NCBI GenBank assembly: GCA_015227615.1
Contig: JAALGZ010000081.1
Span: 20,298-84,297 of the forward strand
Direction: 5' to 3'
Length of the DNA stretch: 64,000 nucleotides
DNA from: Labyrinthula sp. Ha
Lineage: Eukaryota; Sar; Bigyra; Labyrinthulida; Labyrinthulaceae
Positions 1 through 32,374 of this stretch are shown here, one piece after another. The notes under the pieces were generated by a model that was not told the origin of the DNA, made no database searches, and saw only the letters and a list, made by a program, of their open reading frames with translations. The position numbers and the translations under genes are program-made. Position 1 is the first letter of the stretch, and the number at the start of each line of letters is the position of its first letter.

Positions 1-1174
1 CCTTTTGGTTCCTGGGTTTCGTAATTATCTTCAAACCGTTCTTGTTGTTCATATAGGCCTGCTTTAGTCGCTGCAAATTGAGATGCTTAACTCCAAGTAG
101 TAGCTCATCGAGTTCAAGGTGTAAGGTTTGTGGAGTCTTCTGTAGCAGTATCTTCACTATCCTCTTTCTGTGTTGATCCTTCTCCCCTTGGCTTAGAAAA
201 CGCAACTTCTTGTGAACTTCATCAAAGAATAAGTATATTTGCTCTTCTGGGGATAAGGTTCTCGAAGGCCATGTTAACTCTTCTGAAAGCTTTGTCAGAC
301 ATCTAGCTCTGTTAATCCTATCGAACTTCGAAACGTGCTTCTTCAGGTACCTATAGATAGCTCTTGTATCGTATACATCTACTCCACGGTGACGTAAACT
401 GGATGTCACATCCTCCGTTAACAAAACTTGGATCTTCAAGTTTGGCACGCTTACCGCAACTCCGTCAAAGTCGTGCAGGAAGTTCAGAATAGCCTTCTGT
501 GTTAACTCCCACAGCTTTGGCGGTAACTGAAACTGCACTAAAGGGACCCCAGATGCATTTCCGTCCGTGATTACCTGCCTTCTCCAGTCATACATGTAGC
601 CGTCCTTTACAGCACTTATGTCGACAAAAGAACTCCCCGTATCCGACCACGGGTCCAAGGATCTGTAGCTCATTACACTTTCCTTGTCTCTCTTTTTGTC
701 ATTGACTGGTACTTCGTGTCTCACCACTTCATCACCGTTATTCTCGTTATCATAATGTTCAGGCGTGTCCGTAACATCCTCATCTGCGGTTGATTTTCCT
801 GCGTCCCCTTCTTCAATTAGCTTTTGCCTCGCTTCTAGAATACGCTGAAGCTCTAAATTAGCCTCTTGCTGCCTGGCTAGCGTTTCCTGAAGTGTTCGAT
901 TGGCTTCTTCTCTGTCTTCTAGTGCTTTTTCCCATCTTTCAAGTCTGCTCCGTTCCCGCTGCTGACGCGTTAACTCCTCCAAAGTGCTTGTGGGAAAAAG
1001 GTCCTGTGTACCAGCTGAACGCGTTACGACTCCTCTGGACTGTGTATTCCCTTGTGGCTCGTCATCCTCAGGAACGTTTCTGCGTGTCGTGGGAATCGGT
1101 TCCGGCTGGGTGGGATTGTCGTCGTCTTGTTCCTGAGTGACTGCATATGTATATTCTTCTTGATTTTCAGCCAT
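1..1174 (-). CDS. Gag-like protein of element 2, partial at the window edge
   Basis: An uninterrupted frame of about 391 codons starts at ATG 1174-1172 and runs past position 1. The N-terminal third is charged and glutamine/glutamate-rich, with a probable coiled coil (repeats of E, R and Q around residues 75-130). The remainder aligns in order with the Gag of element 1: SYRSLDPWSDTGS matches SIDPWSETGG, VPLVQFQLPPKL matches YPLVHIQPPNKL, IYRYLKKHV matches IMNYLKKHL, and SPEEQIYLFFDEV matches the element 1 stretch that carries a TAA where Gln stands here. No zinc knuckle is seen in the visible part. Gag should package element RNA; that role is inferred from position and from the homologous element. 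Confidence 0.8.
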   Translation of the reverse strand, partial: MAENQEEYTYAVTQEQDDDNPTQPEPIPTTRRNVPEDDEPQGNTQSRGVVTRSAGTQDLFPTSTLEELTRQQRERSRLERWEKALEDREEANRTLQETLARQQEANLELQRILEARQKLIEEGDAGKSTADEDVTDTPEHYDNENNGDEVVRHEVPVNDKKRDKESVMSYRSLDPWSDTGSSFVDISAVKDGYMYDWRRQVITDGNASGVPLVQFQLPPKLWELTQKAILNFLHDFDGVAVSVPNLKIQVLLTEDVTSSLRHRGVDVYDTRAIYRYLKKHVSKFDRINRARCLTKLSEELTWPSRTLSPEEQIYLFFDEVHKKLRFLSQGEKDQHRKRIVKILLQKTPQTLHLELDELLLGVKHLNLQRLKQAYMNNKNGLKIITKPRNQK

Positions 1175-1492: not shown

Positions 1493-2286
1493 TCAATTGA
1501 AAAACAAGCTTGAAAATGCAGTACTTATAATGTTCTCAGAGTATTTATCAAGTACTTCTAATCTTTTAAGAACTTGTTTTGTATTAACCGAATCAACACG
1601 TAAAGTACTTGCGGCTATAAAACTGTCTTTTCTCCATAAAAAACATTATAAATAGAAGGAATTACTGATACAGAGTTAACATTAATACCGAGATCTACCA
1701 TTACACATTTTCTTAGAGAATTTAGAAGGAAAAACAGAGAGTAAATATGAGCTTGCTAAAAAGTACTTCGTTCATAATCAAGAGCATCAAAACGAAACAG
1801 AGATACTTTTTCCAAAACTGATGATTTAACTAAGGTGAAAATAGTTGGTAAGAGAAAATAGCTTTCAGATTTAGAAAAAGAGAGTTCAAGCTGCATAATA
1901 TTTGAGACCCAATTAGATCGGAAGTAATACTTTGAAAGAGGCTGTAAAAGTGAATCTAAAAGAATCGAAATTTTCCCAAGTTTCCTGTCGACTTTCTTAC
2001 ATAGTTTCTTATACATTTTGAACCCTTTCGAGTTTTTAAAGAGCTAAATTTTACAGTTTTCATCGATTTTTTTCTTAAAAGACAATCAAATAAAGTTTCT
2101 GCGTTGATTAGAACAGTCGAGTATATATCAATTTCTTGAAAAGTTATTGGGGCCAGTATATCAGAAAGCAAAAAATTTCTAATTCTATTTTTATTGGAAA
2201 AGTTTAACCGTATTTTCATTTTTATTATTTTAAGTTTTGAAAATAACGACATAATATATTTTGTTTCTTGGCTGGTCCAGCGGATC
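1493..2286 (-). pseudogene. Decayed copy of the 54168 gene, C-terminal part
   Basis: This is the C-terminal part of a copy of the intact gene at 54168-55163, cut by insertion of element 1 after 2286; the N-terminal part is at 10171-10374. By eye the nucleotide identity with the intact copy is about 95 percent. It is dead independently of the insertion: a one-base deletion near 1995 shifts the frame after the NYVRKSTGNLGK stretch, and a Trp codon of the intact copy (TFWQAH) is TAG here near 1760. The product family is unknown; see 54168. Confidence 0.9.
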
Positions 2287-2458
2287 TGTCCTCAAAGGAC
2301 GCGACTATCGTTTTAGTTAACGTAACTGGAACACTTATGTCATATGTAATATACTTTGGTTAGTTGAAATATATAACCGTTACTTGTCGTGAAAACTTAA
2401 CCGTTAATACAATATTATACACTGATGTATTAAGTCAAAAAGGTTAACCCAGAAGACA
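2287..2458 (+). repeat. 5' LTR of element 1
   Basis: It starts TGTCCTCAAAGG and ends CCCAGAAGACA, with TGTC/GACA inverted termini. It is the direct repeat of 9999-10170. The left flank GATC (2283-2286) repeats after the 3' LTR. Confidence 0.93.
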
Positions 2459-2470
2459 TTACTCGAGTAA
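2459..2470 (+). other. Perfect 12-bp palindrome directly after the 5' LTR of element 1
   Basis: TTACTCGAGTAA abuts the LTR and is followed by CGTACTTATT and the gag ATG at 2481. No TGG-type tRNA primer binding site is visible here. The position and the following CGT are shared with element 2. Confidence 0.6.
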
Positions 2471-2480
2471 CGTACTTATT

Positions 2481-3900
2481 ATGGATAAATCAGAAGCAAA
2501 AAGTACTAAATTACCTACTGAAGAGTTCACGGGACCGAGTAACCCACAAAAGGATATCAATGAAGAAGACCAAAGTCAAAATTCAGTCAAATCACCTCCC
2601 AAACAATCGTCCGCGTCGAAATCTTTCTCAAAATCTCCTAAGAAGTCTCCAAGAGAATCTCCCAGACACGCAGGCGACAATGTTAAATACATGCCACAGG
2701 ACTTAGATAACATAAGCAAGATCATAAAGTAGCGAAAGAGGATGGAGAGAATACAACATGACATTGCCGAAAAGCTCGCAGAAATCACAGTAGTGGAAGA
2801 AAGACTGAAGAACACAAATACCCCGATCAATCTAAAGACAACGACAAAAGCTCCAAAGCAACTACAGTAGATCCTTCTCGACACTCTTTAAACGATGATG
2901 CGGAAACGCGAAGCCAGGTTGCAACTTTAACGAGAAGATCTAAAGCTTCTAAAGTATCTGGAAGGTCCGAAGTTTCTAGGGAGAAGAGCTACAGTTCAAA
3001 GGTTACAGACGTATATAAACGTCCAGGAAGTCAAAATATTCCCAGCCATCTTTGAAGGAGGATAAAAACTCTTCAACGACACTAAGCATCGACCCTTGGT
3101 CAGAAACTGGAGGCATTAATGTAGACAAAAAGTTTCATGCACGAAGTTACGAACCTCAGTATTTACCAACTTCATCCTTCCCTCTGACTGCACGTGGTTA
3201 TCCACTTGTCCACATCCAACCTCCCAACAAACTAACAGCTCTGACTTTTGAGAAGATTAAAGCTTTTGTTCGTGAAGTAGAAACTACTCTTCCAAATATA
3301 CCTATGAACGTACTTAGTTTAATCTCGAACAGTGTCACTGAGAGTCCGCAACAACGGGGGGGGGGGGTAAATACAAATGAATCGCAGTCAATAATGAACT
3401 ATTTGAAGAAGCATTTACAAAACTATTACAAAGCTGAAAGATCAAGTAGTATTTCTCAATTACAAACAGTCCTCAAATGGCCTACAAATAATATGATACC
3501 TGAAGATTAAATCTATACTTTTATTGACGATGCAATGAAGATACTCAAGCTTCTAGATAAAGATCAAATGAATAGAAATCGAAAAAAGATCCTCAACACT
3601 ATTCTATCCAAAGTTCCAGAAGCATTTAACTTCAACGTTGATGAAATGCTACTAGACGCGAAAGAATTAAACTTACTTAAGTTAAGATCCAAGATGATGA
3701 AGAGAAGATTTGTTTTAAGGGTTAAAGTCAACAAAACCAAGCAGGTCAGTGGACTGAAGACTTCTTATTTACCTCTTTATCAACATGACGACGATCATAA
3801 GCGCAAACATTTTAGGAAGGTTGGATGCATTATTCTCAGAAGAATTGGGAAAGAAGCAACTCCAATCAATTTAATGCTTTTTCATCTAGCAAATAAATAA
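2481..3900 (+). pseudogene. Gag region of element 1
   Basis: ATG 2481 opens a Ser/Lys/Pro-rich N-terminus (KSPKKSPRESPRHAG), followed by stops and frame loss between about 2730 and 3050. From 3052 the frame carries the part conserved with the Gag of element 2: SIDPWSETGG, YPLVHIQPPNKL, IMNYLKKHLQNYY, then a TAA at 3508 where element 2 has Gln, then IYTFIDDAMKILK and ELNLLKLRSKM. The remaining segment to 3900 is basic (KVNKTKQ, DDDHKRKHFRKV), which would suit RNA binding, but no CCHC knuckle is seen. A run of 12 G at 3356-3367 lies inside it. Confidence 0.8.
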
Positions 3901-4233
3901 TACACTCAAGTCAATGACATTGCCGATACAGGAGCTGACTATAATGTTAGCAGCATCCAAGCTTTAAAGGATTTCACAATAAAAACTGAAGACCCTTAAT
4001 ATATTAAAGAAGTACAATTTCCAGATAAGTCTCAAAAAAGTGTGGAGAAAGTTGTTTATACAAGAGCAATGCTAACACAAGGAGAAAAGACATTCAAAAT
4101 CGGCGTCCAGAAGTTCTTCACAGTGAACGATCCAAACTGGGAGGAGATAATTATTGGGCACAGGACACTGGACTACTTCGGAATAAAGTTGGATCTTTCT
4201 CAGGCAAACCACGCAAAAGAAAAGGATGAATAG
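3901..4233 (+). pseudogene. Retropepsin-like protease region of element 1
   Basis: In the same frame as gag, this follows a TAA. The active-site motif is NDIADTGADYNV (DTG at 3925-3933), and the family's C-terminal motif appears as EEIIIGHRTLDYFGIKL. There is an internal TAA near 3997 (TEDP-stop-YIKEV) and a TAG at 4231-4233. It would cleave the Gag-Pol precursor. Assignment rests on the DTG and on position between gag and RT. Confidence 0.75.
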
Positions 4234-5874
4234 GAAGCAGGTGAAAACGAAGACCTAGTTTCTGGACCAACAACATCGACACAAGGCACCCAGCAAACGA
4301 CATTCGAAGAGTCAACAGTCACAATTTATGTCCACCTTCTCAACAAGGACGAGATCCTCTCTTTCTTCAAGAATTCAAGTTCGCACTCTACGATGTATAT
4401 TATTAGATCAAGCTCTCAATTTCTATATTATATTTTCAAAGTCTTTTACGACGCTGGGTATAAACTCGCTGATTCAATTATTTTTGTAAATAAGGAGGAC
4501 TTAGCCATGGACCAACCACACAAATTATTTAAAAGATCTGTCTTAAGATATTTACTATTCTACAAGAAGGGATTAGATCATTCTATTATCGAACACCAAC
4601 AAGACACAGATGTTCAACTTGAGTACAATGATATTGAAGAGAATTTAGGAAAGATCACTCAAAACTTATTCGTCTCTAAACCTATTTTACAATATTTTAA
4701 TGATACACCAACAATTCCATCCCAAGATTGGGACACTTATATCCGAACTCTCACAGTTAGAGAGCTAAGGGTTAAGCCCATTGAAGATCTAGAAACAGCT
4801 CAATTTGAAGAACTCAATAAAGACCCTGATAAGACTGATGTTACCCCAGTTTTACTCGCCAACTTCCAGCAGAATATGCCAGATGAATTCAACGAAATTG
4901 GCATTGGGGAGGGCAATATTCAAAAGGAAGATGAAGACAAAGAAATATATAATATGATTAACAATAAACTCTCGGAATCTACTTTTAATTTACAAAAACA
5001 GAACTTCTTAAAGGATCTTTGTTTAAAATATCGAACAGGATGGGGCCTTAGACAATCAAATGTCCAAATGTCAAATTTAACACCCATAGAGGTAGAACTG
5101 AAACCAGACTCTTCTATCCTCAGGAGCGATGGTTATCATCAAACCAAAGAAGAAGAAAGATTCCTACAATTAAAATTCGAAGCCCTAAGAAAGGTTGGTA
5201 TAGTAAGTCCTGCTAAAGATCCAATTTGGGGCCACCCAGTTTTTGTTGTTACTAAGAAAATTTCTAAAACAAAGAACTGGGTTTCAATGTCAAATAAAGA
5301 AAGAGAAGATTGGAAGGAGGGCAACCTTCTAAATCACTACCGCATGGTAGCCAATATGATTAAATAAAATCAAATCACTCAACCTACTACTTTAAACTTG
5401 CCGAACTTAGAAAGGTAGCTGATGTCCATAAAGAACACCAGGTTCTACGCAACGTTGGACATACTTTACGGTTTTGATTTTCTACCTACAAAGGAGGAAA
5501 ACCGTGAAATATTTACCTTAGTGACAAGAAAAAACTCTTACACTTTAAATGGAGCTCCAATGGGGTGGTCTAACACCCCAGCTCTCTTTTTCGACCGAAT
5601 AATAAATAAAGTAATCGATCAAGATGATGACTATTTGTTTAGCACGGAAGGAAATGGTGTTTTAGCCTGGCTTGATGACCTTCTTGTCTACCCAACCTCC
5701 CTTAAAAATCTATGCATTATTCTTGAAAAGCTATTAAAAAGGGTTATTTTTCGAAAAGTCCGCTATAATATCAGGAAATGTGGTTTCGGCGAAGAGCACA
5801 CCATTTGATGTGGCCGCGAGATAAAAGATGGTCACTGGAACTTCTCTCCAGCTTTCTTCGATAAAATTTTAAAC
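4234..5874 (+). pseudogene. Reverse transcriptase region of element 1 with preceding linker
   Basis: The frame continues from gag and protease. 4393-5050 is a linker I do not recognise. RT begins about 5090 (LTPIEVELKPDSS), with KVGIVSPAKDPIWGHPVFVV, HYRMVANMIK, then TAA at 5365 and TAG near 5416. It continues with FYATLDILYGFDFLP, YTLNGAPMGWSNTPALFFDRI and the catalytic LAWLDDLLVYP (YxDD-box variant). A TGA near 5806 (HTI-stop-CGREI) stands where related elements have Trp before CGR. RT copies element RNA into cDNA. Apart from the stops, the catalytic motifs are intact. Confidence 0.88.
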
Positions 5875-6891
5875 ATGACAAAGCCAACGTATAGACACGA
5901 AGCTGCTCAACTTGTCTATCTTGCCAACTGGCTCTCTCCCAATATACCAAAACTCTCTCAATTACGGAAGCCATTCACAGAGTACGCAAATCTAAAGGGC
6001 AAGAAGTTGACTGCAATAGAAAAATTAAAGGATGAAGTTGAATGGACTGAGGAAAGGGAACAGGCCTATATTCTATTAAAGCAGGCCATAGTTGATTCAA
6101 GCAAGCGTTTTCTTGCTATATACGAGGAAAAGATTCCTTTGTTACTTTTTACTGATTCATCTCCAGATGTTTGGGGTCTTCCTGTATTTCAAGACGAAGA
6201 AAAGAACGTCACAAATGACGTTAGGACTCTCAAACCCAGACCAATTATGTTTTTATCTGCCTCATTCTCTCCAAGTGAGTTAAGATGGCATATCTCATCA
6301 AAAGAACTTTACCCTATAATTTACACATTTGAGAGTATTGGGTTCATCTTAAGGACACACTCTGGTGACATTTACATTTACACAGACCACGGAGCCCTTA
6401 TCTCCATTGTTAGAATAAAACAAAACGAACGGAGAATATATTGGGACCGCCTTTATAGGTGGATCCTAAGGTTACAGTCGGTTGACTTAACCATTTTTCA
6501 CATTTCTAGTAGAGATAATTTCGTTTCTGACCCCCTCACTAGATGGGGGAAAACAACTGAAATAAAAACTGCTAGATGCAATGTTTTATATCAAAATAAT
6601 ACTTTACCTGTTTTATCAATATATTCAGAAAGTTCAGAAGTAGAAGACAAAGATGATTCAAATTTAACTCAGACTAATTCAGTGAGCCAACTAAATATAA
6701 GTGAACTAAAAATATTTAGATGCTCAAACAAAGAAAATTATCAAGAAATTATGAACCGGGAACCAGGATTAGCTCGTGTTAGAGCAGAGGTTAATAACCT
6801 CTCTTTTGGTGAGGCGGAACTCGAAGACAGAGTCTCTGTTTGCACCAATCGTTCTAATTTACACCAAGTATTATTAAAGGAGCATATATAA
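5875..6891 (+). pseudogene. RNase H region of element 1
   Basis: Same frame as RT. After the RT connection region (YRHEAAQLVYLANWL, EWTEEREQAYILLKQAI) come the RNase H motifs: LLLFTDSSPDVWGLPVF, SASFSPSELRWHISSKELYP, IYIYTDHGALISI and TIFHISSRDNFVSDPLTRW, the last being the family's C-terminal N-x-V-x-D motif. It would remove RNA from the RNA:DNA hybrid. The frame ends with TAA at 6889 (KEHI-stop-HLSP), after which the integrase linker resumes in the same frame. Confidence 0.85.
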
Positions 6892-8312
6892 CATCTCTCC
6901 CCTTTTTATCCTAATATTTCCTTCAAAACGTTAGACTATGAAATATTGAAGAAACACCAACAACAGTTGGATTCAGAGTTGGTATCAAGTTATGAAATTA
7001 AAGACGGTATTTACTATAAAGACGATCTTCTGGTCATTCCAAGAAAATTAGCCCCTCGATATATAGTAATGAATCATGTTTAAGGGGTCATCCAAGTGCT
7101 TCTGCAGAAAAGAAGTATTTGTCTGAAGTGTTTTTGCAAGGAATTAGAAAGAAAGATTTAAACTCACTGCTCTCTTCGTATAGGAACCGCTGTTTAAATT
7201 GTCAAAAATCACCCCGTATTATACGAAGGCCGTACCACTTGACATCATTAGCCAAGAAAGCTCGCGATATAATTCGCGCAGACTATCTTTACATTAACCA
7301 AAATGGTTATGTATTGGTCATATTGGACTCTGCAACACGAAAAACACAGCTTACATTTCAAAAAACGCCAACTGCAAGGAGAATGGCGGAGGCACTTTTA
7401 TTGTGGAGGGCCAATTTTGGCTTCTCAGAGGATTTCTCAATCATTACAGATAATGGGTCGCACTTCTCAAATAACCTTATACATGATTTAAGCAAGTCAA
7501 TTGGTTTCGAACAGAATTTCACCATTGCTTACTCAACATGGACAAATGGTTCCGTCGAAACAGCCAACAATGGAATTCTAAATTATTTAAAATCGCTAGT
7601 CAACCAATTTGGGTTACATGAATCCCAATGGCCTAGCATTTTACCGCTCATTACCTACATTATTAATAACAAGCCTATGGAAAGAAGAGATGGAAGAACC
7701 CCTAATGAGTTATTTCTATACCATCGACTTGAAACACCTTTGGTTGAACAAAATTTAAAGTATTTCGCTATTACAGTTGGAAACAAACTATATCATCCTT
7801 CGGATCAGGAAGAGATATTTTCAGATGTTGGAAATATCATCCAAAAGCTAGAGGATATTCAGGAAAAAACGTTCGAAGTGGTTAGATTAAAACAGGAGGC
7901 TAAAAATAGCAGAAGAAATAAAACAGCTACACCTATTTTGCAATTTTCACCAGGTGATTGGGTTTTAGTTTCAGAACACGGGACACAACACGAAAACGCA
8001 AAGACAAACCTTGCATGAATTGGTCCCTATCAAATTATAGATATATTATCAAACAACGTTTACCTAGTAGAATCTCTTTTAGGGAAGACAAGAACCGTAC
8101 ACACTTCTAGAATCTGGTTCTATTCCCATACCCACCCAATATGAAGCAAGAAGTTAAAAGCACTTTTTATACACAATTTTAAGCAGTTGGAAATAGAAAG
8201 TATTGTTGGATGCAGATTAGCTGCTGACAATAAATCTTTTGAGTCTAAAATCCGCTGGTTAGGTTTTGAACAAGATCAGGATACCTGGGAACCAGCTGTT
8301 ACTATTTATTAA
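6892..8312 (+). pseudogene. Integrase with C-terminal chromodomain, element 1
   Basis: The N-terminal zinc-binding part shows DLLVIPRKLAPRYIVMNHV, GHPSASAEKKYL and NRCLNCQKSP, split by one frameshift near 7081. The DDE core follows: RADYLYINQNGYVLVIL, SIITDNGSHFSNNL and GSVETANNGILNYL. After that come FSPGDWVLV, a TGA at 8016 exactly before IGPYQIIDIL where the family has Trp, and TVHTSRIWFY. A chromodomain lies at about 8187-8309 (ESKIRWLGFEQDQDTWEPAV). Integrase inserts the cDNA; the chromodomain may direct insertion to particular chromatin, as in chromoviruses. Further stops are TGA near 8141 and TAA at 8310. Confidence 0.88.
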
Positions 8313-8368
8313 GATGTTCTTATTTTAGTTACTTCTTACATTCAAAACATGGAAGACAACAATCTTAA

Positions 8369-9415
8369 GATGCTTATTTCAAGCGTAATCTAAGACCACG
8401 ACATTTCAAGAAGAAATCAAATTTCGCGTATCAGGAGCTTCAAATCACGTTTGGAAAACTTGAAGATTCAAAAATATACCAACCTCGAGCTTATTCCCGG
8501 GGGAACACTCTAGGATGGTTATCCGAGGAAAAATATATTTTGAGACTTTTGATCATGAAATTTGGCTCGGGAAGATACCTAGATTATTTAGAAAGAAACT
8601 ACTTGCCTTTTAGATCGAAGCAACAGATCTCTACTAAGATTCAGAGACTTTGCAACTTACAATCTATTGGTATTTTTCATAACCGTAGATTTGATGTTTA
8701 CAAACCTAGGTCTTTCATTCAAGAACACTTTGGAATCAAAACAATGCATAAAAATTTACCAGGACGTTTTAACACGTACACAAAAAAAAATAAAAATATT
8801 ATCTTTATTCTCTCAAGAAGTTGAAATAACATCGGACCCAGATGACATAAGAATCCCTTATTTCAGAATAACCGGCGACCTTAAACATCTCAGGTTGATG
8901 AAAGAAGAATATTCTAATTTTGATGATTGCAAACTATTCTTATCCCAATTTGGTATTACTTCTCTCGAACTTTTAGAATCAAAAATATTGAGTAGTTCCG
9001 AACCTTTGGCAAAAACAGTAGAAGGAAGCGAGGTTTTACTTAATGATCTCTATAAATCTTTTTTGAAATTACCTAGTTATTGGTAAGATCTGTCCGCTCT
9101 ATATTCTAAGTCAATTACCTTTTGCCAACAAATAAAAAAATTACAGGACACGCCGAGCAATTACACATACAGACAAGATTCTATTTCTATCTCATTTGTT
9201 CTCATTGACAATAAGATTCAGCTTACTTCTGCAAATCTGGTTTCAGGAGATAAAGTTATTTTATTATATAATGGTGGTAATTATTACACGATCTTAGGAT
9301 GTGATAGAATCGTTTATCTCACACCACCTGATGCAAGACTTTTCCATCAAAACGTTTTTGATTTAGAATTTAAAAACCTTACTCAAAGCAAAACATTTAT
9401 CAGATCTAAGTTATA
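8369..9415 (+). pseudogene. Extra ORF of element 1, N-terminal part with SANT/Myb-like segment
   Basis: After pol, a new frame opens at 8369 and runs to 8824, with no ATG required if expressed by read-through. It contains LGWLSEEKYILRLLIMKFGS followed by GRYLDYLERNYLPFRSKQQI (about 8510-8650). This fits the SANT/Myb pattern: a tryptophan and E-E start, a G-x-G-x-Y turn, and a third helix with R-S/T-x-x-Q. The frame shifts near 8770 and continues to 9415 (EITSDPDDIRIPYF, FLSQFGITSLELLESKILS, then TAA at 9084 after PSYW, then DSISISFVLIDNKIQLTSAN). I do not recognise the middle part. It leads directly into the MT-A70 part, so the two were probably one protein of about 540 residues with a DNA-binding N-terminus. 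The SANT call is by pattern only. Confidence 0.55.
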
Positions 9416-9998
9416 GATCCTCCATGGAAAATAGGTAGTTCAAACCCTACACGAAGTATTACACTCGATTGCCCGACTTTATCTAACTCTGAATTTACGA
9501 AACTTAATCTGCATTTACAACACTTCCCTTTCGGAAGTTATTTATTCTTATGGGTTACTAATTCGTCCTATAATAGTTCTTTGTCCTGGACACAAAATCA
9601 AAATTATTATCAAATCGATCTCTTTACATGGATTAAGTCACATAGATCTGGAACTTTATTTAAAAATTTTGGTTATTTTCTACAGCATGCTCAAGAAACA
9701 TGTTTAGTATTTCAGAGAAGAGAACAAGAATCAACTTTTTATACTAATACATTTGGTGAATATAAACTCCACCACTTTTTCGACTCAATTAACACTATTC
9801 CTTTGGATCCTTATACAAAGCCCGAAACATTTTATTGGATTCTCGATCAGATCTTTCCTCACTGCAACAAGTTTGAAATGTTTGCTAGAAGTAATTACTT
9901 AAGACAGTATTGGAGCAGTTGTGGGATTGAACTTGAGCCTAAAGCACATGTTATATACTCACCCTTAAATGCACAGGGTTCCTCTCTTTCAAGGGGGG
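9410..9998 (+). CDS. MT-A70-type adenine methyltransferase domain carried by element 1
   Basis: From 9410 one open frame (no stop until inside the 3' LTR, at 10159) has the MT-A70 hallmarks in family order. VIDPPWKIGSSN contains the catalytic DPPW at 9416-9427. Next comes FGSYLFLWVTN (strand after the motif), then LFTWIKSHRSGTLFKNFGYF and LQHAQETCLVFQRRE (the W-x-K and G-H/Q-x-x-E-x-C-L-V region). Last comes KPETFYWILDQIFP, NKFEMFARSNYLRQYW and SSCGIELE (the K-P-E/D, E-L-F-A-R and W-x-x-x-G region). MT-A70 enzymes place N6-methyladenine on RNA or DNA using S-adenosylmethionine. A one-base frame break near 9413 separates it from the upstream half. Its place between integrase and the polypurine tract makes it part of the element. 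Confidence 0.85.
9991..9998 (+). other. Polypurine tract of element 1
   Basis: AAGGGGGG stands immediately before the TGTCC start of the 3' LTR, the expected place for plus-strand DNA priming. Confidence 0.8.
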
Positions 9999-10170
9999 TG
10001 TCCTCAAAGGATGTGATTATCGTTTTAGTTAACGTAACTGGAACACTTATGTCATATGCAATATACTTTGGTTGGTTGAAATATATACCCGTTACTTGTC
10101 GTGAAAACTTAACCGTTAATGCAATATTCTACACTGATTTATTAAGTCAAAAAGGTTAACCCAGAAGACA
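9999..10170 (+). repeat. 3' LTR of element 1
   Basis: Direct repeat of 2287-2458 with nine differences in 172 bp (about 5 percent). Six are transitions, including three C/T differences close to the 5' end. It is followed by the GATC target duplication at 10171-10174. Confidence 0.93.
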
Positions 10171-10374
10171 GATCTCAAAACAATATAATTTGAAATTAGA
10201 CACTTCAATGTTTTTTATTTTCTCAGAGACCTCTTAATACTCTTCCGAAGCGTTATTAATATTTATAGTTGGCAAATTTTCAATTTTTACTTCTGCTATA
10301 TCAGTGTAATCAAATAAAAGAGTTAGTTTAACTCCAAGATTTTCGTAATAGTGTGAGAATTTTTGCTGGGACAT
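10171..10374 (-). pseudogene. Decayed copy of the 54168 gene, N-terminal part
   Basis: This is the start of the disrupted gene: the ATG complement is at 10372-10374, and codons correspond to the first 68 residues of the 54168 product. A TAA replaces the Ser codon of EEYSEV, so the copy would be dead even without element 1. It joins the part at 1493-2286 across the insertion. Confidence 0.9.
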
Positions 10375-14109: not shown

Positions 14110-14690
14110 TCCCTGCTCTATATGGAGCAATGCTGCCTTCATGGTTCCAAAAGCATTTGTGGGTTTTGGGATAACGGTTGACTTGAGGAAACTCGATGAG
14201 TGTGTGGAGATTGAAACGGTAATATTACCAGCAGTGGAGCAATGGATCAGCTGGTTGTCTTCAGATGCGAAGTTGTTTGCTCACTTTGGCTATCTGGGTG
14301 GGTTTGATATATTAAGCGTTGACCCTGAATCTACGAGGTATTTTGCTATTAGCACAATATTTTGACCATTTAAATTGTTGGGAGCTCTAATGGGCTACGT
14401 CAATACTTCTACCCATTACCAACAAAGGATGGCAATACAGATTCTAGGAGGAGTAGAAGACGATGACTTGTTTGGCAATCCAAGCGAGGGAATACTTCAA
14501 TGAGTCAATGATACACTTATCTAAACTTCAACTTGACCCCGGATCCTAGATGTGGTTGATAAATACCAATCGAATGTTCAAAAATATGATGTCCGATTGA
14601 ACGTTGGCAAATGTAATTTATTTGCGAAAGAAGCTAAGTAGCGTGGAATAACTTTTTCGAAAAGCAAATGGAGGTTCTAGGATAAATATT
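14110..14690 (+). pseudogene. Reverse transcriptase remnant of the decayed gypsy element
   Basis: Readable RT blocks are AFMVPKAFVGFGITVDLRKL, AVEQWISWLSSDAKLFAHFG, SVDPESTRYFAISTIF and LLGALMGYVNTSTHYQQRM. Next come GILQ-TGA-VNDTLI (the Y/W-x-DD catalytic box, with TGA at the usual Trp and N-D for D-D) and VRLNVGKCNLFAKEAK-TAG-RGITFS (TAG at the usual Trp). The two Trp-to-stop changes and the altered catalytic Asp show that it is dead. Confidence 0.75.
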
Positions 14691-14727
14691 CCGACAGGAT
14701 ATTGAGAGTTAACTCGTCTCCAAAAAT

Positions 14728-14770
14728 GGGGGGGGGGTTAGAAGATGCCTTACTCTCTCTCTCTCTCTCT
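14728..14770. repeat. G10 tract and (CT)9 microsatellite
   Basis: A run of ten G at 14728-14737 and a CT dinucleotide run from 14753 to 14770, within the decayed gypsy remnant. Confidence 0.9.
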
Positions 14771-14979
14771 ATGATTTTGTTAAATAGAACTATTACACAA
14801 TTGGCGTAGTTGAAGGAAATATTAGCAAAGATTGTCATCAGAATAAAGAACGATAAAATGGCTAAAAAGAGAAAAAAGTCAATAGGAAGCAAAAGAAAAG
14901 AGTGGTATTGGATCAGTAATGGACATAAGAATATGAAGTAACTTTCCAGAAATTGAAAGAGAGAATTGCGGCTGTGGCA

Positions 14980-15480
14980 AAGAGTAATCTCAGTAACTAC
15001 TCCAGTTTAAGAAATATCATCCTGATCACAGATACCAGTATATATTATTGGAGTACAATTCCAGGTCTAGAAGAAGTTGGTCAAGGCAGAAATGATTTGA
15101 CGAAGTTGTAGTTTCACCCTTTTTATTTCCTTAGTGGAACATATTACGGGAGTTCTCATAATTGGCGAAAACTGAACAAATAACTGTTTACAATAGTAAG
15201 AACAATTCAGAATGTGTGTTTTCTTTTTTAGTCACACCTGTCTCCAATAAACTTGTTTACGGATTACATGAATATAGTTCATCTGATAAAACCAAATCGC
15301 AATTTGAATTTGTCAACAATTTGGAGGCTCTATAGCCGGTTCTTTTTTATATATGTTGTTCCTATTTGCGCAATACACGTTTCAACGGAACAAAATAAGT
15401 TGGTGGACGTGTTTACCAGATTGGGCTATTGAGGAGAACAAGCAGTTCAATATGATATGGATCAAGAAAGAACAGAATTT
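14980..15480 (+). pseudogene. RNase H remnant of the decayed gypsy element
   Basis: Motifs across broken frames are IILITDTSIYYWSTIPGL (first catalytic Asp region), NLFTDYMNIVHLIKPN (second Asp region) and AIHVSTEQNKLVDVFTRLGY (C-terminal N-x-x-x-D region). The order fits a Ty3/gypsy RNase H following the RT at 14110-14690. Confidence 0.6.
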
Positions 15481-15561
15481 TCGGGCGCAATAGCGATGGA
15501 GCCTCTCAAGAATATGGTACAGAGAGCAACAGTTAAAGAATTTAAGGTATTGGAACAATGT

Positions 15562-16730
15562 TATGCGAATTTGTACATTATCCCCTCTTGCTGCTAATCT
15601 AACCTTACGTTTCACAGCACCAGAAATGTTGTCTATCTTTTCAGTAAGAACCTCTCTGAAGGGAATACATTTCATTTCCCTTCTTCTAGGTACAATTTTT
15701 AGCTCTCCTTGCTCTTCTAGTTTAGTTGTTTCATCTAAGTACGATTTTTCCCATTCAGTGTTAGATGCCAAGGCGTCTTTGTAGGACTTGTAGCCTTTTT
15801 TCATGTTACCTTGGAGCTTAGCTTGAGCAATTACTACAGGAATTGTCAACAATGCCTGAGAAGTTTCTGACTGAATTCCTGGTCTAAGTGAACTCAAACT
15901 GTCTTTGAATCGTTCTGGAACTCTAACACTTGAGCGAAGTCTACTCGAGATTGGTTCTTCATTAATTTCAACTACTTCATCATCCTCTGAAAGAGGCTCT
16001 GACACAACATCCTCATATTCACTTTCAGGTGATGTATCATCAAGAAACGTTGTATCTTGTTCAGAAACAGTAACAGCGGAGGCCTGTGGCTTTTGTGAAT
16101 ACGGATCTGCGCTAACTTCACTTAATTCATCATCAAAGGTTTCTTTTCCATCAAAAGTAGTTTTTGGGTCAAAAAGATCATTGACATCTTCTTCATTCTC
16201 CCCCGTTGCACCAAGCAACGTACTTTTGGAATTCAAAAATTTTTCTTCATCGCAGAAAAAACTTCTTGTAGCAAAAATTCTACCGCTGTTAACATCTCTA
16301 ACGACATAGCCATCAAAATTCTCACCATAACCAAGGAACATTACCCTTGTTGCAGTGTCATCTAACTTGCGTCTGTTTTCTCGATGGATATGAGCAAATC
16401 CAACGACTCCAAAAATTCTAAGTTTTTCAACGGGTGGTTGAACACCGAACAAAAGTTCCCACGGAGAAATGTCTTCCTTCGACAACTTCGTAAAGTTGTA
16501 CGCATGAGTCGCACATTTCATTGCGAATGACCAAAAACCTCTACTAACACCAGCTTGTTTAATGAGACTTCTCATGTTTTCCAGCAAAATTCGATTAGAG
16601 TTCTCTGCACGACTATTTTGCTCATGTTCATAGGGAATCGTAACATGGTGTTTGATGCCTTTCTTCTTTAAGAATCCATCAAGATTTTTATTGCAAAACT
16701 CTGTTCCATTATCTGTCCTCAGATTTTGAA
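15562..16730 (-). pseudogene. Ty1/copia pol: second half of integrase and start of RT, truncated
   Basis: On the minus strand the frame holds NLRTDNGTEFCNKNLDGF (second integrase Asp) and NSRAENSNRILLENMRSLIK (catalytic Glu), then FWSFAMKCATHAYNF, RIFGVVGFAHIH and VMFLGYGENFDGYVV. A long acidic linker follows, then the first RT block: YKDALASNTEWEKSYLDETT, LKIVPRRREMKCIPFREVLT and AVKRKVRLAARGD. Homology ends at about 15565 and the rest of RT and RNase H is absent. A one-base frameshift near 16735 separates it from the upstream frame. The frame continues to 15382 through unrelated sequence. Confidence 0.85.
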
Positions 16731-18290
16731 CCTGACCTGGGAAACTTTTTCGAGATAACTAACATGTGAAACCATCAAGTCTGGTACTTCACTTTTCTTT
16801 GCAAACGGAAAACTCCATTGAAATTGTGATCTAGCATCAGTAACTACTAATGCCCCAGTCTTACGGTCAATTGATGTATCATAAGGACCCACTGTGTCTG
16901 CAACTAAAAGTTCCAGCAATTTCCTCTCTGTAGGAATCTTGCTACTTTTGGGAATTCTAACACGATGTAACTTCCCCTTCATGCATCCAACACAGGTTGT
17001 TCTCGAGCTAAGTGGCTCGTCCTTCTTGATGAACTTCGAAACAGTTCGCACAAGACGATCTTTGCTACAATGATTCAAACGGTTATGCCAGACTTCAAGA
17101 GAAACCATAGCTTTTTCTTTCGGCAAAAAATGCACTCTAAACAATCCATCTGTGCATCTTCTTGCTACATAAACAACTTCACCTTTCGAAATGATCTTTG
17201 CAACATCCTGCGAAAACACAACGTCCACACCTTTTTTTGTCAGAGCAGCAACAGAAAGTAACATAGGTGCTCCAGACCAATGAAGTACTCCTGAAAGAGA
17301 TATTGGTTTTCCATTTTCTAACGTAAGTTTAACGTCACCAGCCTTATCGGTACATATCTCACCGCTTGCTGTAGATATCTGCTTCTCGGGAATCTTGGTC
17401 TTATTAGAGAAGAGGTCACGCTCACCACATACGTGTTGTGTAGCACCAGAGTCCAGAATGAAGCTAATGCGATTCCTGTTCAGCGTTGCTGCACACATCC
17501 AAGCTTCTTCTCTCTGTTTCTTTTTCTCTTTCTCATGAGGTCTTTTTCCCTTCTTTGCGCTTCTTTCCGGACATTCAGAACGAAAATGTCCTTTGTTCCC
17601 ACAACCAAAACACTTGACCGAAGACTTCTTCTTTTTCTTCTTCTTGGTAGTATTTTCGCGGGTGTTCATTGCGGTTTCCTTCTCAACAGAGTAATTTTTT
17701 CCACCAGGGTGATAAAGACCACAATCCATAAGGTAATCCAAAACTGCATCAAAAGTAGTTTCCCAAATTAACCTTGCTTCTGGTGAAGACTCCGCAGTCC
17801 TCTTAAGAGGATGTGTGATCGCCGATAAACTCCTAGGTAATCTTTCTAAGAAATTAAGAGAAAGATCCTGCCAGCTTATCACACCGTTCATAGAATCCAA
17901 CTGCGCAACCAGCGCTTGATAGCGCGTCATAAAGCGGAAATAATCCTTCTCAAAAGTCACATGGGCGATTTCTTGTCTCAGCTTACGCTTTTGATTCGCA
18001 ACTGATCCGACAAACATTCTCTTAATGCCACGAAAAACTTCATACGCGCTACTAAAATGTCTTACCGCTGCCACGAGGTCCACCTCTAGACTAGAAAGTA
18101 CGTCTCTTCTGCATCTAGCTTTAACTAAATCCGCAGCGTTCTCCGCACCTCCATCAGGAACCTCAATTTGACTTCCTTCACTAACGTGACTCCAGTATCC
18201 CAAAGATTCAAAGTGTGCTCCAAGCTGTGCTATCCAGTCGTATATATCACCATTTAGCCCAAGCTTCCGAAGTTTAGGTACACGATCCAT
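16719..18290 (-). CDS. Ty1/copia Gag-protease-integrase (first half)
   Basis: The first ATG is at 18290 (MDRVPKLRKLG); the frame is open for about 524 codons. The Gag part contains IAQLGAHFESLGYW and KRKLRQEIAHVTFEKDYFRF. Then come a CCHC zinc knuckle (CFGCGNKGHFRSEC), the protease (ISFILDSGATQHVCGERDLF, with the DSG active site), and the GAG-pre-integrase zinc domain (LEVWHNRLNHCSKDRL with CVGCMKGKLHR). Last is the start of the integrase core (LELLVADTVGPY, ALVVTDARSQFQWSFPF). It lacks the in-frame stops seen in the gypsy copies, so it is comparatively young. The frame is lost just before the second integrase Asp. Confidence 0.88.
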   Translation of the reverse strand: MDRVPKLRKLGLNGDIYDWIAQLGAHFESLGYWSHVSEGSQIEVPDGGAENAADLVKARCRRDVLSSLEVDLVAAVRHFSSAYEVFRGIKRMFVGSVANQKRKLRQEIAHVTFEKDYFRFMTRYQALVAQLDSMNGVISWQDLSLNFLERLPRSLSAITHPLKRTAESSPEARLIWETTFDAVLDYLMDCGLYHPGGKNYSVEKETAMNTRENTTKKKKKKKSSVKCFGCGNKGHFRSECPERSAKKGKRPHEKEKKKQREEAWMCAATLNRNRISFILDSGATQHVCGERDLFSNKTKIPEKQISTASGEICTDKAGDVKLTLENGKPISLSGVLHWSGAPMLLSVAALTKKGVDVVFSQDVAKIISKGEVVYVARRCTDGLFRVHFLPKEKAMVSLEVWHNRLNHCSKDRLVRTVSKFIKKDEPLSSRTTCVGCMKGKLHRVRIPKSSKIPTERKLLELLVADTVGPYDTSIDRKTGALVVTDARSQFQWSFPFAKKSEVPDLMVSHVSYLEKVSQVRFKI

Positions 18291-18344
18291 CAAGCTCAAA
18301 TTCAAAACTCGATCCGGCCGTCTGAACCTTTCAAAGGGGTACAA

Positions 18345-19200
18345 AGAAGATCCCAGGAGACTTGCACTCCTAAAGTATGTTTTTTACTAGGGATGTGAGT
18401 TCCTTGATCCTACTGGGCAGAACTTACTCACGAGTATGTCTTATTGCTTTTAGGCTCTTAACCTGTTTTTCCGGAAAGCTCCTTTTTTTACAATTAAGAA
18501 TTAAAGCACGGAAAACAAGTCGAACTATTAACGGCTGAAGTGATGCCTCTGACAGATGTATTCACAGCTGGGAACCTATCAGACAGAGTAGCCAGTTTCA
18601 CAAACCCTAACTGTAACCACAGGTAACTGCAGAAGTTATTCTACTACCTGTACCAACTCTTAGTTTCTAGAGCAACATAAATTGCACACTAAAGCAAGAA
18701 AGAAGTTCTACCGAAACTTTATGCTGCGATGGTGACCGGGCAGGACGAAACACAAACAAAACAACAACAACTTCTAGCCGAAGTTCTCCACAAGAATTAA
18801 CCAAAGTGCCAAGTTGAACCAGTTGAGACTATGCCCAAAACATGCACAAAACAAAATACCGTGAATCAGAAAATTAGCGCATGTGCTAATTTCCTACAAC
18901 TTCTGATTTGCTTTTCTCTTCAGGGTCTAGAACCTCTGGTTGGACGTTCGTCCCTTTGCTTTCGTCTTTTTGCATAGTTTTTGTTCGTAATTTTGTTTTG
19001 AAATTTGCCCAAAATATTTGTGTACGCCCTCTTTAAATTTTATCCAAGTATAGGGATTCACAAATCTGCGCATCGAATATTCAAACGAAGTATGATGAAA
19101 AATCGCGATTCCGCGCATTGCAAATTTCGTCTGTGGGAAATCGCCACTCTGCGCATACTTTATTCAGACGAAGTATGATAAAAAAAAGTTTGGGAAATCG
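18345..19200 (-). other. Upstream region of the copia element, LTR not resolved
   Basis: The 5' LTR and leader of the copia element should lie here, but the second LTR is missing because the element is 3'-truncated, so limits cannot be set. No coding frame is supported. Imperfect copies of a motif occur at 19065 (TCTGCGCATCGAATATTC, then ACGAAGTATGATGAAAAA) and 19148, offset 83 bp. Confidence 0.35.
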
Positions 19201-29889: not shown

Positions 29890-30905
29890 GGTTGTATTGT
29901 TGTAGACTAAGTATTTCCAAAGTGTGATTGATATGTCATCCATTATCTAAAGAAGAAATAAACTGAGCGATTGAAAGCTAATTTTTCTCCAACTAATATT
30001 AATTGATCATGTTAACTTATGAACTTGATCACCCTTTTGTTTTAGATTCCCTGATCCATGCGCATTATAACATAATTTCTGCCAATTAAGTATCTGCCAA
30101 TCATAGCTATATGGATGAGAGTTGGTCATCTCCTTTATGGGTTTGCCTCAATTTCATCTTCCTTCGATAAGTCTATGCTAACTAATAGAAAATTCTCATT
30201 TGGCTGCTTAGACTTTCTTCCCTTATCTCTTTCCTTTCTTGAACATCCCGGTTGTCTTAATGGAGTCCCTTTCTTTAAACTCATACGAAGAAAGCAGTAT
30301 ATATATCCCAGAATACTTTTTGGTTCTTCACGGTAAATAAAAATCAGCCTCATATATTTCTCAGGAAAAAAGAATATATTAACTTTTCTAAACTTCTCTA
30401 CAATTAAGTGTTTTTCATTATCGGTGAAAAGAGAAGAAACAGAACTGACTTTATCAAAATAGTATATGTTTCTTTTTCACATTTTCAACTTTTGTATTCT
30501 TTCAATATTATATTATATACATAAATCTCTTTCTAGTTTCATATATGCAAAGAATTCAAAATTATATTCTAGTTTCTCTTGTCCAAAGTGAACAATTCAG
30601 CCTATTTTTTCCCGGCGATAAATCTTTTCAAGTTTACCAATTATAAAATACCAACATTTTCTTTATAAACATGTTTACTTTGGACAAGTTATGTTTTTTC
30701 TATTAACTTAAGGTTAAACTAGCTAAGCACAAGTAACTATTATTCCTTGTTGAAGATAAAGATTCATTCTAATTAATGGCTTACTAGTATTTCTATCTGG
30801 CCGGGAGAAAACTTAGTCAAGCACGCAACAGATCTTGTCAACAGTCATGTTCTTTCTGAACAAGTTTTATTCTTGAAATGTCTTGAATTCAAATAAAATT
30901 AAAAC
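29890..30905. other. Intergenic region upstream of the metalloprotease
   Basis: No supported gene. It is likely to contain the promoter of the 30906 gene, but I recognise no motif with confidence. Confidence 0.5.
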
Positions 30906-32374
30906 ATGATGAACAACCAACAATACAAAGGAAATGTAGCTGGAGTACTTGGGAATGAAAACAGGGAAGCATCTTCACCACAGAAATCCTCTTTTTCTTT
31001 TATGTTTTTTGTCTATTTTTCAGCATTTCTACTTGCTGTCATAATAGTTGGAGGTTTTTTTGCTCTTCAAGATGCACTTAATCCTGAAAACTCTGACGAA
31101 AACGAAAAGGGGGAAGATATTACTGATAACCCAACACCATTCCCAACTCGATTTCCAACAGATTTCCCAACTCGATTTCCAACAGATTTCCCAACTAGAT
31201 TTCCAACATTTCCTCCTACAGATTTCCCAACTGAAAGACCTACAACTGAAGAAGAGAAAGATGAAATTAAAGAGTTATGCAGAACAGTTACTAGGGGAAC
31301 AAGAGTACAAGCTAAGTCGAGCGACTATATTTCAGTAGTATTTGACTCAACACCAAACTCTGCAGATTGCATTGCGTTCATGAGAGCAGCATCAAGATTA
31401 TCAACAGCTGTTGCAGAAACTTTTAATGACATCAATTTCTCACCAAGTTCAAGTTTTCGTCTTTCTGATATTTGTGGCTTGACAGGAAATTTTAACCCAA
31501 CAGTATTTCCTGCTTTCGAAAATATTAAGGACTTAACTATTGTCGCACTGTTGGATTCGATCGATGGAGCTGGTGGAATTTTAGCTGCAGTACATTTTCT
31601 TCTCTTGTTTGACTTTAGGCTGGCCCTTGTATCTTTAGCACAGCATTTGAGTTACCTTTGGCTGGTGTGATGATTTTTGACACAGATGACACTGCAGATT
31701 TATCCATATTTGGAAAACTTGAAGACGTCGTTTTACATGAAATGATGCACGTCCTTGGATTTGGTAGTATGTGGAGCCGAGTTCCAGATGGTGCTGGTGG
31801 CTTCATTACCTCGACAGATGTTCTACGTGATGAAGTTTATGTAATAAATGGATTTGGGGATATTGTTTCAAGAAATTCAAATAATCAACCAAAATTTATT
31901 GGAAGTTCTGGAATTGAGGAGTTTGAAGAGCTTACAGGAGAAGCAGAATCTTTTGTTCCGGTTCAAGGAGTACGTCTTGACGGCCAGGTTATTTTCAATG
32001 TTTTTAATGATGAAGGCCGTGGAAGTGTTGATTCACATATTGATAAAGACACTTTTCAGGATGAGTTGATGACTTTTGCTGTAGATGTAGAAAGTGGAAG
32101 AGCAAGCCCTTTGAGTGCGATGTCATTGAAGATGTTGGAAGATATTGGTTATGATGTGAACGTGACAGTTGCAGATTTATACAGTCTTGAATCGAGAAGA
32201 CTTATAGCAGAAGACAGAAATTTAAGAGCAGAAAAGGAATATTTGTTTGATCTTACAGGAGATGTCTTGAACTTTGTGCCAAAGCCATTTGGAGTTGATG
32301 CATCAGGAGTTCTTAAATTCCAAAGGGTTGAAAAACCGAAATCAATCAAGCAGCTTTTTAACCTGGAGGATTAG
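30906..32374 (+). CDS. Membrane-anchored leishmanolysin-like zinc metalloprotease
   Basis: Two exons (30906-31589, 31619-32374) encode 479 residues. A 29-nt intron (31590-31618) joins ILAA to AGPCIFSTAFELPLAGVMIF. Residues 31-53 form one hydrophobic segment with no cleavage site, so a type II membrane anchor is likely. Residues 77-113 are a Pro-Thr stalk of FPTRFPTD-type repeats. The catalytic part has HEMMHVLGFGSMW (His268, Glu269, His272) and a downstream VDSHIDKDTFQDELMTF with the probable third zinc ligand His368 and Met turn. It continues into SPLSAMSLKMLEDIGYDVN, as in M8-like proteases. It should act as an endopeptidase at the cell surface or in the secretory lumen; substrates are unknown. 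It ends in TAG. Confidence 0.88.
31590..31618 (+). other. 29-nt intron of the metalloprotease gene
   Basis: GTACATTTTC...TGACTTTAG, phase 0. Removal restores the conserved AAGPC block of the protease family. Confidence 0.9.

Follow-up and report, generated by a model that had tools for sequence, protein, structure and literature searches.

A p1-like segment and an AMT1-like MT-A70 domain form the Pol C-terminus of Ty3/gypsy-type retrotransposons in Labyrinthula sp. Ha

Results

A module of p1-like and AMT1-like parts at the end of Pol

A 64,000-nucleotide (nt) stretch of contig JAALGZ010000081.1 of Labyrinthula sp. Ha, here called the window, holds a chromodomain-bearing Ty3/gypsy-type long terminal repeat (LTR) retrotransposon at 2287-10170 (+). 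In this element and its intact relatives, the end of Pol comprises a segment that resembles p1, a DNA-binding partner of the ciliate MTA1 complex, and an MT-A70 domain that is closest by sequence to AMT1/MTA1, the eukaryotic methyltransferase that produces N6-methyladenine (6mA) in DNA. The core claim of the first-pass annotation stands: a Ty3/gypsy-type element encodes, between its integrase/chromodomain and its 3' LTR, an MT-A70 enzyme whose N-terminus is SANT-like. What had been described as an extra open reading frame is instead the C-terminus of Pol, which forms one frame with the reverse transcriptase (RT), integrase and chromodomain in the intact relatives. The stretch 8369-9998 of the window consists of the following parts, compared with L031, the closest relative of the window element among those fetched whole:

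8495..8794 (+), p1-like (Myb/SANT-like) putative DNA-binding segment, 82% identical to L031; sequence match to p1 in L031 and relatives
8838..9374 (+), helical linker plus beta-strands, joining the p1-like part to the catalytic domain, after the L031 model; 65% to L031
9374..9973 (+), AMT1-like MT-A70 domain (PF05063), 76.5% to L031; DPPW at about 9416-9427

The MT-A70 profile of Pfam (PF05063) matches window positions 9410-10156 (+) with an E value of 2.9e-17 and 63.6 bits (cut-off 23.9), and the motifs DPPW, FLWVTN, HAQETCLV, KPETFYW and FEMFAR that had been read by eye are all present in the window translation. The SANT label fared less evenly: no Pfam match at E<=1 was found for the Myb/SANT-like stretch of the window (8369-8821), while a Myb match lies below the cut-off in one relative (L035, E 0.0011) and above it in one protein (P0011, E 2e-7).

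The module is fused in frame to Pol in intact relatives

The genome (50.8 Mb in 153 contigs) was searched with the MT-A70 domain of the window, and the best 150 matches, ranging from 100% down to 27% identity, were scored. By our count of the matches listed, 34 of the 150 lie in open frames that run for 1500 codons or more, with no stop within the match. Six relatives (L031-L036) display a long open frame in which Pfam recognizes, in this order, RVT_1, RNase H, rve, Chromo and, last, MT-A70 (E 4e-19 to 3e-24 for the latter; some rve and Chromo scores fall below the Pfam cut-offs), and a seventh element, L067, has a single frame of 2278 amino acids running from Gag through MT-A70. The domain is therefore joined in frame to the Pol C-terminus in all seven intact elements examined. 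Five of the six relatives yielded an LTR pair, with 97.0-99.6% identity between the two repeats, and the L036 family includes three copies that do not differ across 457 amino acids. The long open frames, the near-identical LTRs and the identical copies together indicate that the domain is part of Pol and that these families were recently active.

The possibility that the window copy reflects a one-off insertion of the domain, which had been raised at the outset, is ruled out, because MT-A70 recurs at the same place across many families, often in long open frames. An artefact affecting the whole family is likewise excluded by EukProt gene models, apparently from the same species, in which the whole of protein P0010 recurs unchanged within P0002. 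The L033 C-terminus, used as a protein query, returned four proteins, all from EukProt; a six-row profile returned two, one EukProt element and one bacterial protein; and viral contigs searched with one element yielded no relative, the reach of these searches being limited.

The arrangement of protease-type sites and of the Gag-Pol border varies among these elements. D-S/T-G sites of the aspartic protease type occur before RT in L035 and between the p1-like part and MT-A70 in L034 and L067; the Gag frame of L031 contains IADTGAD near its end, and no such site was seen in Pol of L031, L032, L033 or L036. The site within the module reads LLDSGA in L034, L067 and P0011, which have none before RT, and is recognized in L034 as Pfam RVP (E 0.00025). 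In L031, L033 and L036, Gag and Pol share one frame with a single UAG between them (GAA-TAG-GAT, GCA-TAG-GAA and GCG-TAG-GAT, respectively), which suggests stop-codon readthrough.

The catalytic domain is closest to AMT1/MTA1

Comparison of the MT-A70 domains with the sequences in the PDB consistently favored Tetrahymena MTA1 over METTL3, with 123 versus 83 bits for L034, 112 versus 55 for L031 and 118 versus 67 for L036. The difference of 40-57 bits in these single elements increases to 115 bits with a profile of 21 element C-termini, which scores 239 bits against MTA1, 124 against METTL3, 66 against METTL14, 53 against 7cv6 and 38 against MTA9. Entry 7cv6 is titled 'Methyltransferase-like protein 2' and we take it to be a METTL4-type protein. 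A bacterial MT-A70 protein used as control showed no bias (61.1 bits for MTA1 versus 61.0 for METTL3). By sequence, then, the element enzyme is closest to AMT1/MTA1.

In a tree of 45 domains, one branch separates 23 element rows from 20 AMT1 rows (support 93/73), and the split corresponds to a single change in 200 of 200 bootstrap trees when the METTL3 and bacterial rows are not counted. These two, human METTL3 and one bacterial protein, are the only other rows, and are weakly placed on long branches; the 20 AMT1 references were kept from the listed best 120 out of 966 retrieved by a profile in which element rows were included. The topology is compatible with a single capture followed by radiation.

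The fold was not used for the choice between MTA1 and METTL3, because their rows were tied for the element model in the VIA structure comparison. With regard to the N-terminal helix of MTA1, to which p1 and p2 bind, the aligned ranges, judged by end points only, start at model residues 173-192 for the MTA1 chains (MTA1 residues 135-151) and at model residue 300 for METTL3.

The SANT-like segment resembles p1

The segment preceding MT-A70 matches p1 of the ciliate MTA1 complex with E values of 9e-16 (L034), 8e-10 (L036) and 1e-5 (L031). The 21-row profile aligns with residues 14-257 of the 309 of p1 (E 6.9e-19), and the segment of L034, excised alone, retains the match (E 4e-17), the likeness extending well beyond the Myb repeat. 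As in p1, an N-terminal Myb/homeobox-like domain is followed by p1-specific sequence, and the fold of the segment also matches p1.

MTA1 is the catalytic subunit of the ciliate complex, p1 and p2 bind DNA together with MTA1, p2 opens the S-adenosylmethionine pocket, and MTA9 is a partner without activity; ApT serves as substrate (PMC9174199, PMC9852454). A review describes a Rhizopus complex of Mta1, Mta9 and P1 (PMC13297926), and an ichthyosporean p1 bears a PHD reader (PMC12695648). With an AMT1-like enzyme next to a p1-like segment, the element therefore carries, one after the other, counterparts of two subunits that interact within a single DNA methylase, and their fusion in one chain makes it likely that the p1-like part binds the AMT1-like part. 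The first-pass annotation had left the choice between N6-methyladenosine (m6A) in RNA and 6mA in DNA undecided; the resemblance to AMT1 and p1 sharpens this question and points to DNA, and the functional ideas offered there keep their conditional form.

The module is under purifying selection and mostly retains the catalytic motif

Codon comparison of 14 open C-termini, nine of them from the wider family of the window element, was restricted to pairs with a synonymous divergence (dS) of 0.05-1.5. The median ratio of nonsynonymous to synonymous divergence (dN/dS) is 0.03 in the p1-like part (14 of 91 pairs), 0.10 in the linker (16 pairs) and 0.09 in MT-A70 (8 pairs), compared to 0.05 in the integrase C-terminus (25 pairs) and 0.41 in the chromodomain (38 pairs); synonymous sites are saturated in most of the remaining pairs, and pairs are not independent. 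The module is under purifying selection, a point on which the earlier annotation had called for a check.

Among 30 loci retrieved with the window domain, 26 have an open frame that shows DPPW and, after it, the P-T/S-R motif. A second set of 30 loci could be read at 28, the other two holding only the p1-like half; here DPPW was found in 21 and NPPW in one, with an unrelated upstream site in four and nothing in two. Altered catalytic motifs are DPAW in L067 and DPPY in L035. When six elements were aligned to MTA1, whose residue roles were taken from PMC9852454, D209 and N360 were conserved in all six and R357 and S332 in five each; D182 appears as Asp or Asn in all six, and N370 is retained in only one.

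The two parts travel together, and the host seems to keep its own genes

Tetrahymena p1, used as query, located 150 p1-like places, and 133 of them are followed on the same strand by MT-A70 at a distance of 150-2200 bp (median 924 bp). Random placement, uniform along each contig and ignoring nesting, yielded 3 such cases on average, with a maximum of 7 over 200 trials. The MT-A70 places tallied among the matches listed number at least 264; this count includes broken pieces and the probable host AMT1 (locus C91), excludes the window's own copy and some best rows, and is approximate for contig C46.

The module is not in every Ty3-type element, since at most 43 of the best 150 RNase H matches lack a listed MT-A70 downstream; the remaining 107 have one at 1.5-5.5 kb (median 3.1 kb). 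The eleven best-scoring RNase H matches (PF17917) are all among those 43, which suggests a coexisting Ty3-type lineage that lacks the module. If so, it would be useful as a control.

For AMT1, the highest-scoring place in the genome is C91, which is 64% identical to a Hondaea protein with 316 bits, the next match reaching 146. It is a 327-amino-acid frame that ends with the MT-A70 domain, is not joined to Pol and shares 28-37% identity with the element domains compared. Among 121 reference proteins, the AMT1-like protein of this genome is nearest to those of Mucochytrium quahogii and Hondaea fermentalgiana (65%), and C91 is probably the host AMT1. The two best p1-like places, C100 (45%, 104 bits) and C1 (44%, 103 bits), stand apart from the next (71 bits) and are among the 17 of 150 p1-like places that lack MT-A70 downstream; they look like host p1 genes. 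The host thus seems to retain separate AMT1 and p1 genes.

Structure and insertion of the window element

The remaining features of the window element are as follows:

2283..2286 (no strand), left copy of the target-site duplication, GATC, from flank reading and empty-site alignment
2287..2458 (+), 5' LTR with TG...CA ends, 172 nt, 95% identical to the 3' LTR
2459..4230 (+), decayed Gag region, matching the L031 Gag frame in several frames
4234..9973 (+), decayed Pol region, broken by in-frame stops and four or more frame changes
5335..5790 (+), reverse transcriptase, RVT_1 E 6e-10 in open reading frame 5419-5808; 85.5% to L031 RT
6136..6480 (+), RNase H, RT_RNaseH E 2.4e-14; 89.6% to L031
7257..7535 (+), integrase core, rve E 5e-7 with 30.4 bits, short of the 32.6 set as cut-off; 85% to L031
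8190..8345 (+), chromodomain, 90% to that of L031, itself called by Pfam at E 6e-8
9990..9998 (+), polypurine tract, read directly
9999..10170 (+), 3' LTR, 172 nt, 95% identical to the 5' LTR
10171..10174 (no strand), right copy of the target-site duplication, GATC, from flank reading and empty-site alignment

The Ty3/gypsy-type label is based on the domain order and on the match of the L034 RT to Ty3 in the PDB (7q5b, E 2e-18). Pieces of intact-relative Pol map on the window copy in successive frames 1, 3, 2, 3 and 2, interrupted by in-frame stops. The match to L031 Gag starts at 2433, within the LTR, because the L031 frame was taken from stop to stop. The purine tract CAAGGGGGG lies immediately 5' of the 3' LTR.

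The joined flanks of the element align to window positions 53668-55068 on the opposite strand over 1401 nt (97.07% identity, 2 gaps), where the element is absent. Because GATC is found on both sides and a paralogous empty site exists, the window element is a real insertion, and an assembly or annotation artefact is ruled out for this copy. The element lies within a member of a host gene family for which Pfam gave no match, at 1956-2291 (-) in the window, and another copy is at 54144-55163 (+). A preference for GATC as target was considered and rejected, as the duplications read by eye in other elements are GGAT (L032), TCTC (L034) and GCTT (L035), with none in L031; the comparison covers these four, the left flank of L033 lying outside the region fetched and L036 not being delimited.

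Directly 3' of the 5' LTR, the window element (2459-2472), L031, L032 and L033 have the palindrome TTACTCGAGTAA or TTATTCGAATAA, followed by CGT. This is unlike the usual TGG-type primer site, and priming may be unusual.

Other sequences in and near the window include a Gag relative at 62-1021 (-), 30% to L031 Gag, and the MT-A70 of another element just to the left of the window (C134:14046-14660, -). At 14165-15426 (+) and 15382-18383 (-), remnants of a distant Ty3-type RT-RNase H (23-28% to L031) lie beside a Ty1/copia-type element. Two frames at 30903-32374 (+) correspond to a membrane-anchored protein that combines FPTRFPTDFPT repeats with a part resembling leishmanolysin (Peptidase_M8, E 4.6e-5).

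Discussion

Proposed function of the module

Domain identity and order, the in-frame fusion, the many copies, the conserved motif, the purifying selection and the existence of separate AMT1-like and p1-like loci are established. Starting from these, we propose, with a probability of roughly 0.55, that a chromodomain-bearing Ty3/gypsy-type lineage acquired p1 and AMT1, and that the resulting module writes adenine methylation on the element's complementary DNA (cDNA) or insertion, where it is transcription-permissive and counters silencing. Past acquisition would have brought in two subunits of the 6mA complex, p1 and the catalytic AMT1/MTA1. Because these stand in series at the Pol C-terminus, a histone reader (the chromodomain), a DNA-binding part (p1) and an adenine methyltransferase (AMT1) would be delivered together with the integrase, and the module could act freed from it or still attached. 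Adenines in ApT, as for AMT1, would be methylated on the element's own cDNA or on the fresh insertion and its surroundings. The mark would correspond to transcription-permissive chromatin, and silencing of the new copy would be countered; the partners MTA9 and p2 may be borrowed from the host or be dispensable. Enzyme activity, a DNA substrate, the element as target and an anti-silencing effect are what we infer from the sequences.

6mA made by AMT1 accompanies H3K4me3 and active genes in many protists (PMC12695648). If 6mA is permissive in protists, as recent mapping suggests, the element would carry a writer of an 'on' mark rather than evade an 'off' mark. The genome would then offer a natural test of the role of 6mA, through the comparison of young, marked insertions with old ones by nanopore reading, and the one-chain fusion may help explain how p1 and AMT1 cooperate. 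A broader picture, which we hold tentatively and at a little short of even odds, is that most AMT1-type genes here are retrotransposon-borne, with a histone reader, a DNA binder and a 6mA writer in one chain with an integrase, writing a transcription-permissive adenine mark on their own insertions, and that a good share of the 6mA landscape of this species could be driven by transposons.

The alternative that survives best, improbable as it is, holds that the module serves targeting. The p1-like part and the chromodomain would tether the integration complex to chromatin, and MT-A70 would be a scaffold or an incidental enzyme. Chromodomains are known to act in targeting in elements of this type, dN/dS is lowest in the p1-like part (0.03), and some MT-A70 domains have altered motifs. 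A scaffold, however, need not retain a catalytic motif, and DPPW persists in 21 of 28 loci and together with P-T/S-R in 26 of 30.

Interference with the host is less probable still. The element's p1-AMT1 would compete for MTA9, p2 or sites and disturb host 6mA, to the indirect benefit of the element. The lack of a visible MTA9 or p2 in the elements, the apparent retention by the genome of its own AMT1 (C91) and two p1-like genes, and the presence of at least a few hundred element-borne homologues all agree with such competition, against which the retained catalytic motif argues.

We disfavor, as quite improbable, a function in writing m6A on element or host RNA. METTL3 belongs to MT-A70 and is not separable from MTA1 by fold alone, and an orchid Ty3/gypsy element has an m6A demethylase (PMC9289625). 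Nevertheless, the sequence scores favor AMT1, by 40-57 bits for elements taken singly and by 115 bits for the profile, with an unbiased bacterial control; the neighboring segment resembles p1, the DNA-binding partner specific to AMT1; and no CCCH finger is listed by Pfam in the six relatives L031-L036. Least likely of all is a passenger domain captured once and carried without present use, for although the window copy and many others are broken and the families have diverged widely (MT-A70 being often only 25-45% alike between them), both parts stay together (133 of 150) under purifying selection and are fused in frame in 7 of 7 intact elements.

Comparison with known systems

In the literature searched, which covered few subscription papers or preprints, no MT-A70 or AMT1 enzyme in an LTR element was found. 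The ciliate MTA1c/AMT1 complex (MTA1, MTA9, p1 and p2) is matched by sequence and fold in two of its four subunits, p1 and MTA1/AMT1. There, the subunits are separate host proteins, whereas here they form one chain with RT-RNase H, integrase and chromodomain, with no visible MTA9 or p2.

Among mobile elements, KnitGypsy-Dnmt3 of Klebsormidium is likewise a Gypsy LTR element with a DNA methyltransferase in the Pol open reading frame under purifying selection (PMC5890265). By contrast, its enzyme is a structurally unrelated cytosine methyltransferase, and the passages describing it mention no DNA-binding subunit. DIRS elements also combine a retrotransposon with an N6-adenine methylase, in a tyrosine-recombinase order and with a methylase that is bacterial and Dam-like (PMC5890265, PMC6338049). 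The orchid Ty3/gypsy element with an AlkB m6A demethylase similarly captured an enzyme related to N6-methyladenine, in that case an RNA-acting eraser in a separate open reading frame (PMC9289625), as opposed to the writer type with DNA-acting relatives found here. The Sola1 DNA transposon of Ectocarpus, with ParB and an N4C/N6A methyltransferase, also joins a DNA-binding domain to a base methyltransferase (PMC12477816); it differs in being a DNA transposon and in that both domains are of other, prokaryote-typical kinds. The fusion described here is real, recurrent and under selection, and what is new in it is the enzyme class, the presence of two partner subunits and the scale within one genome.
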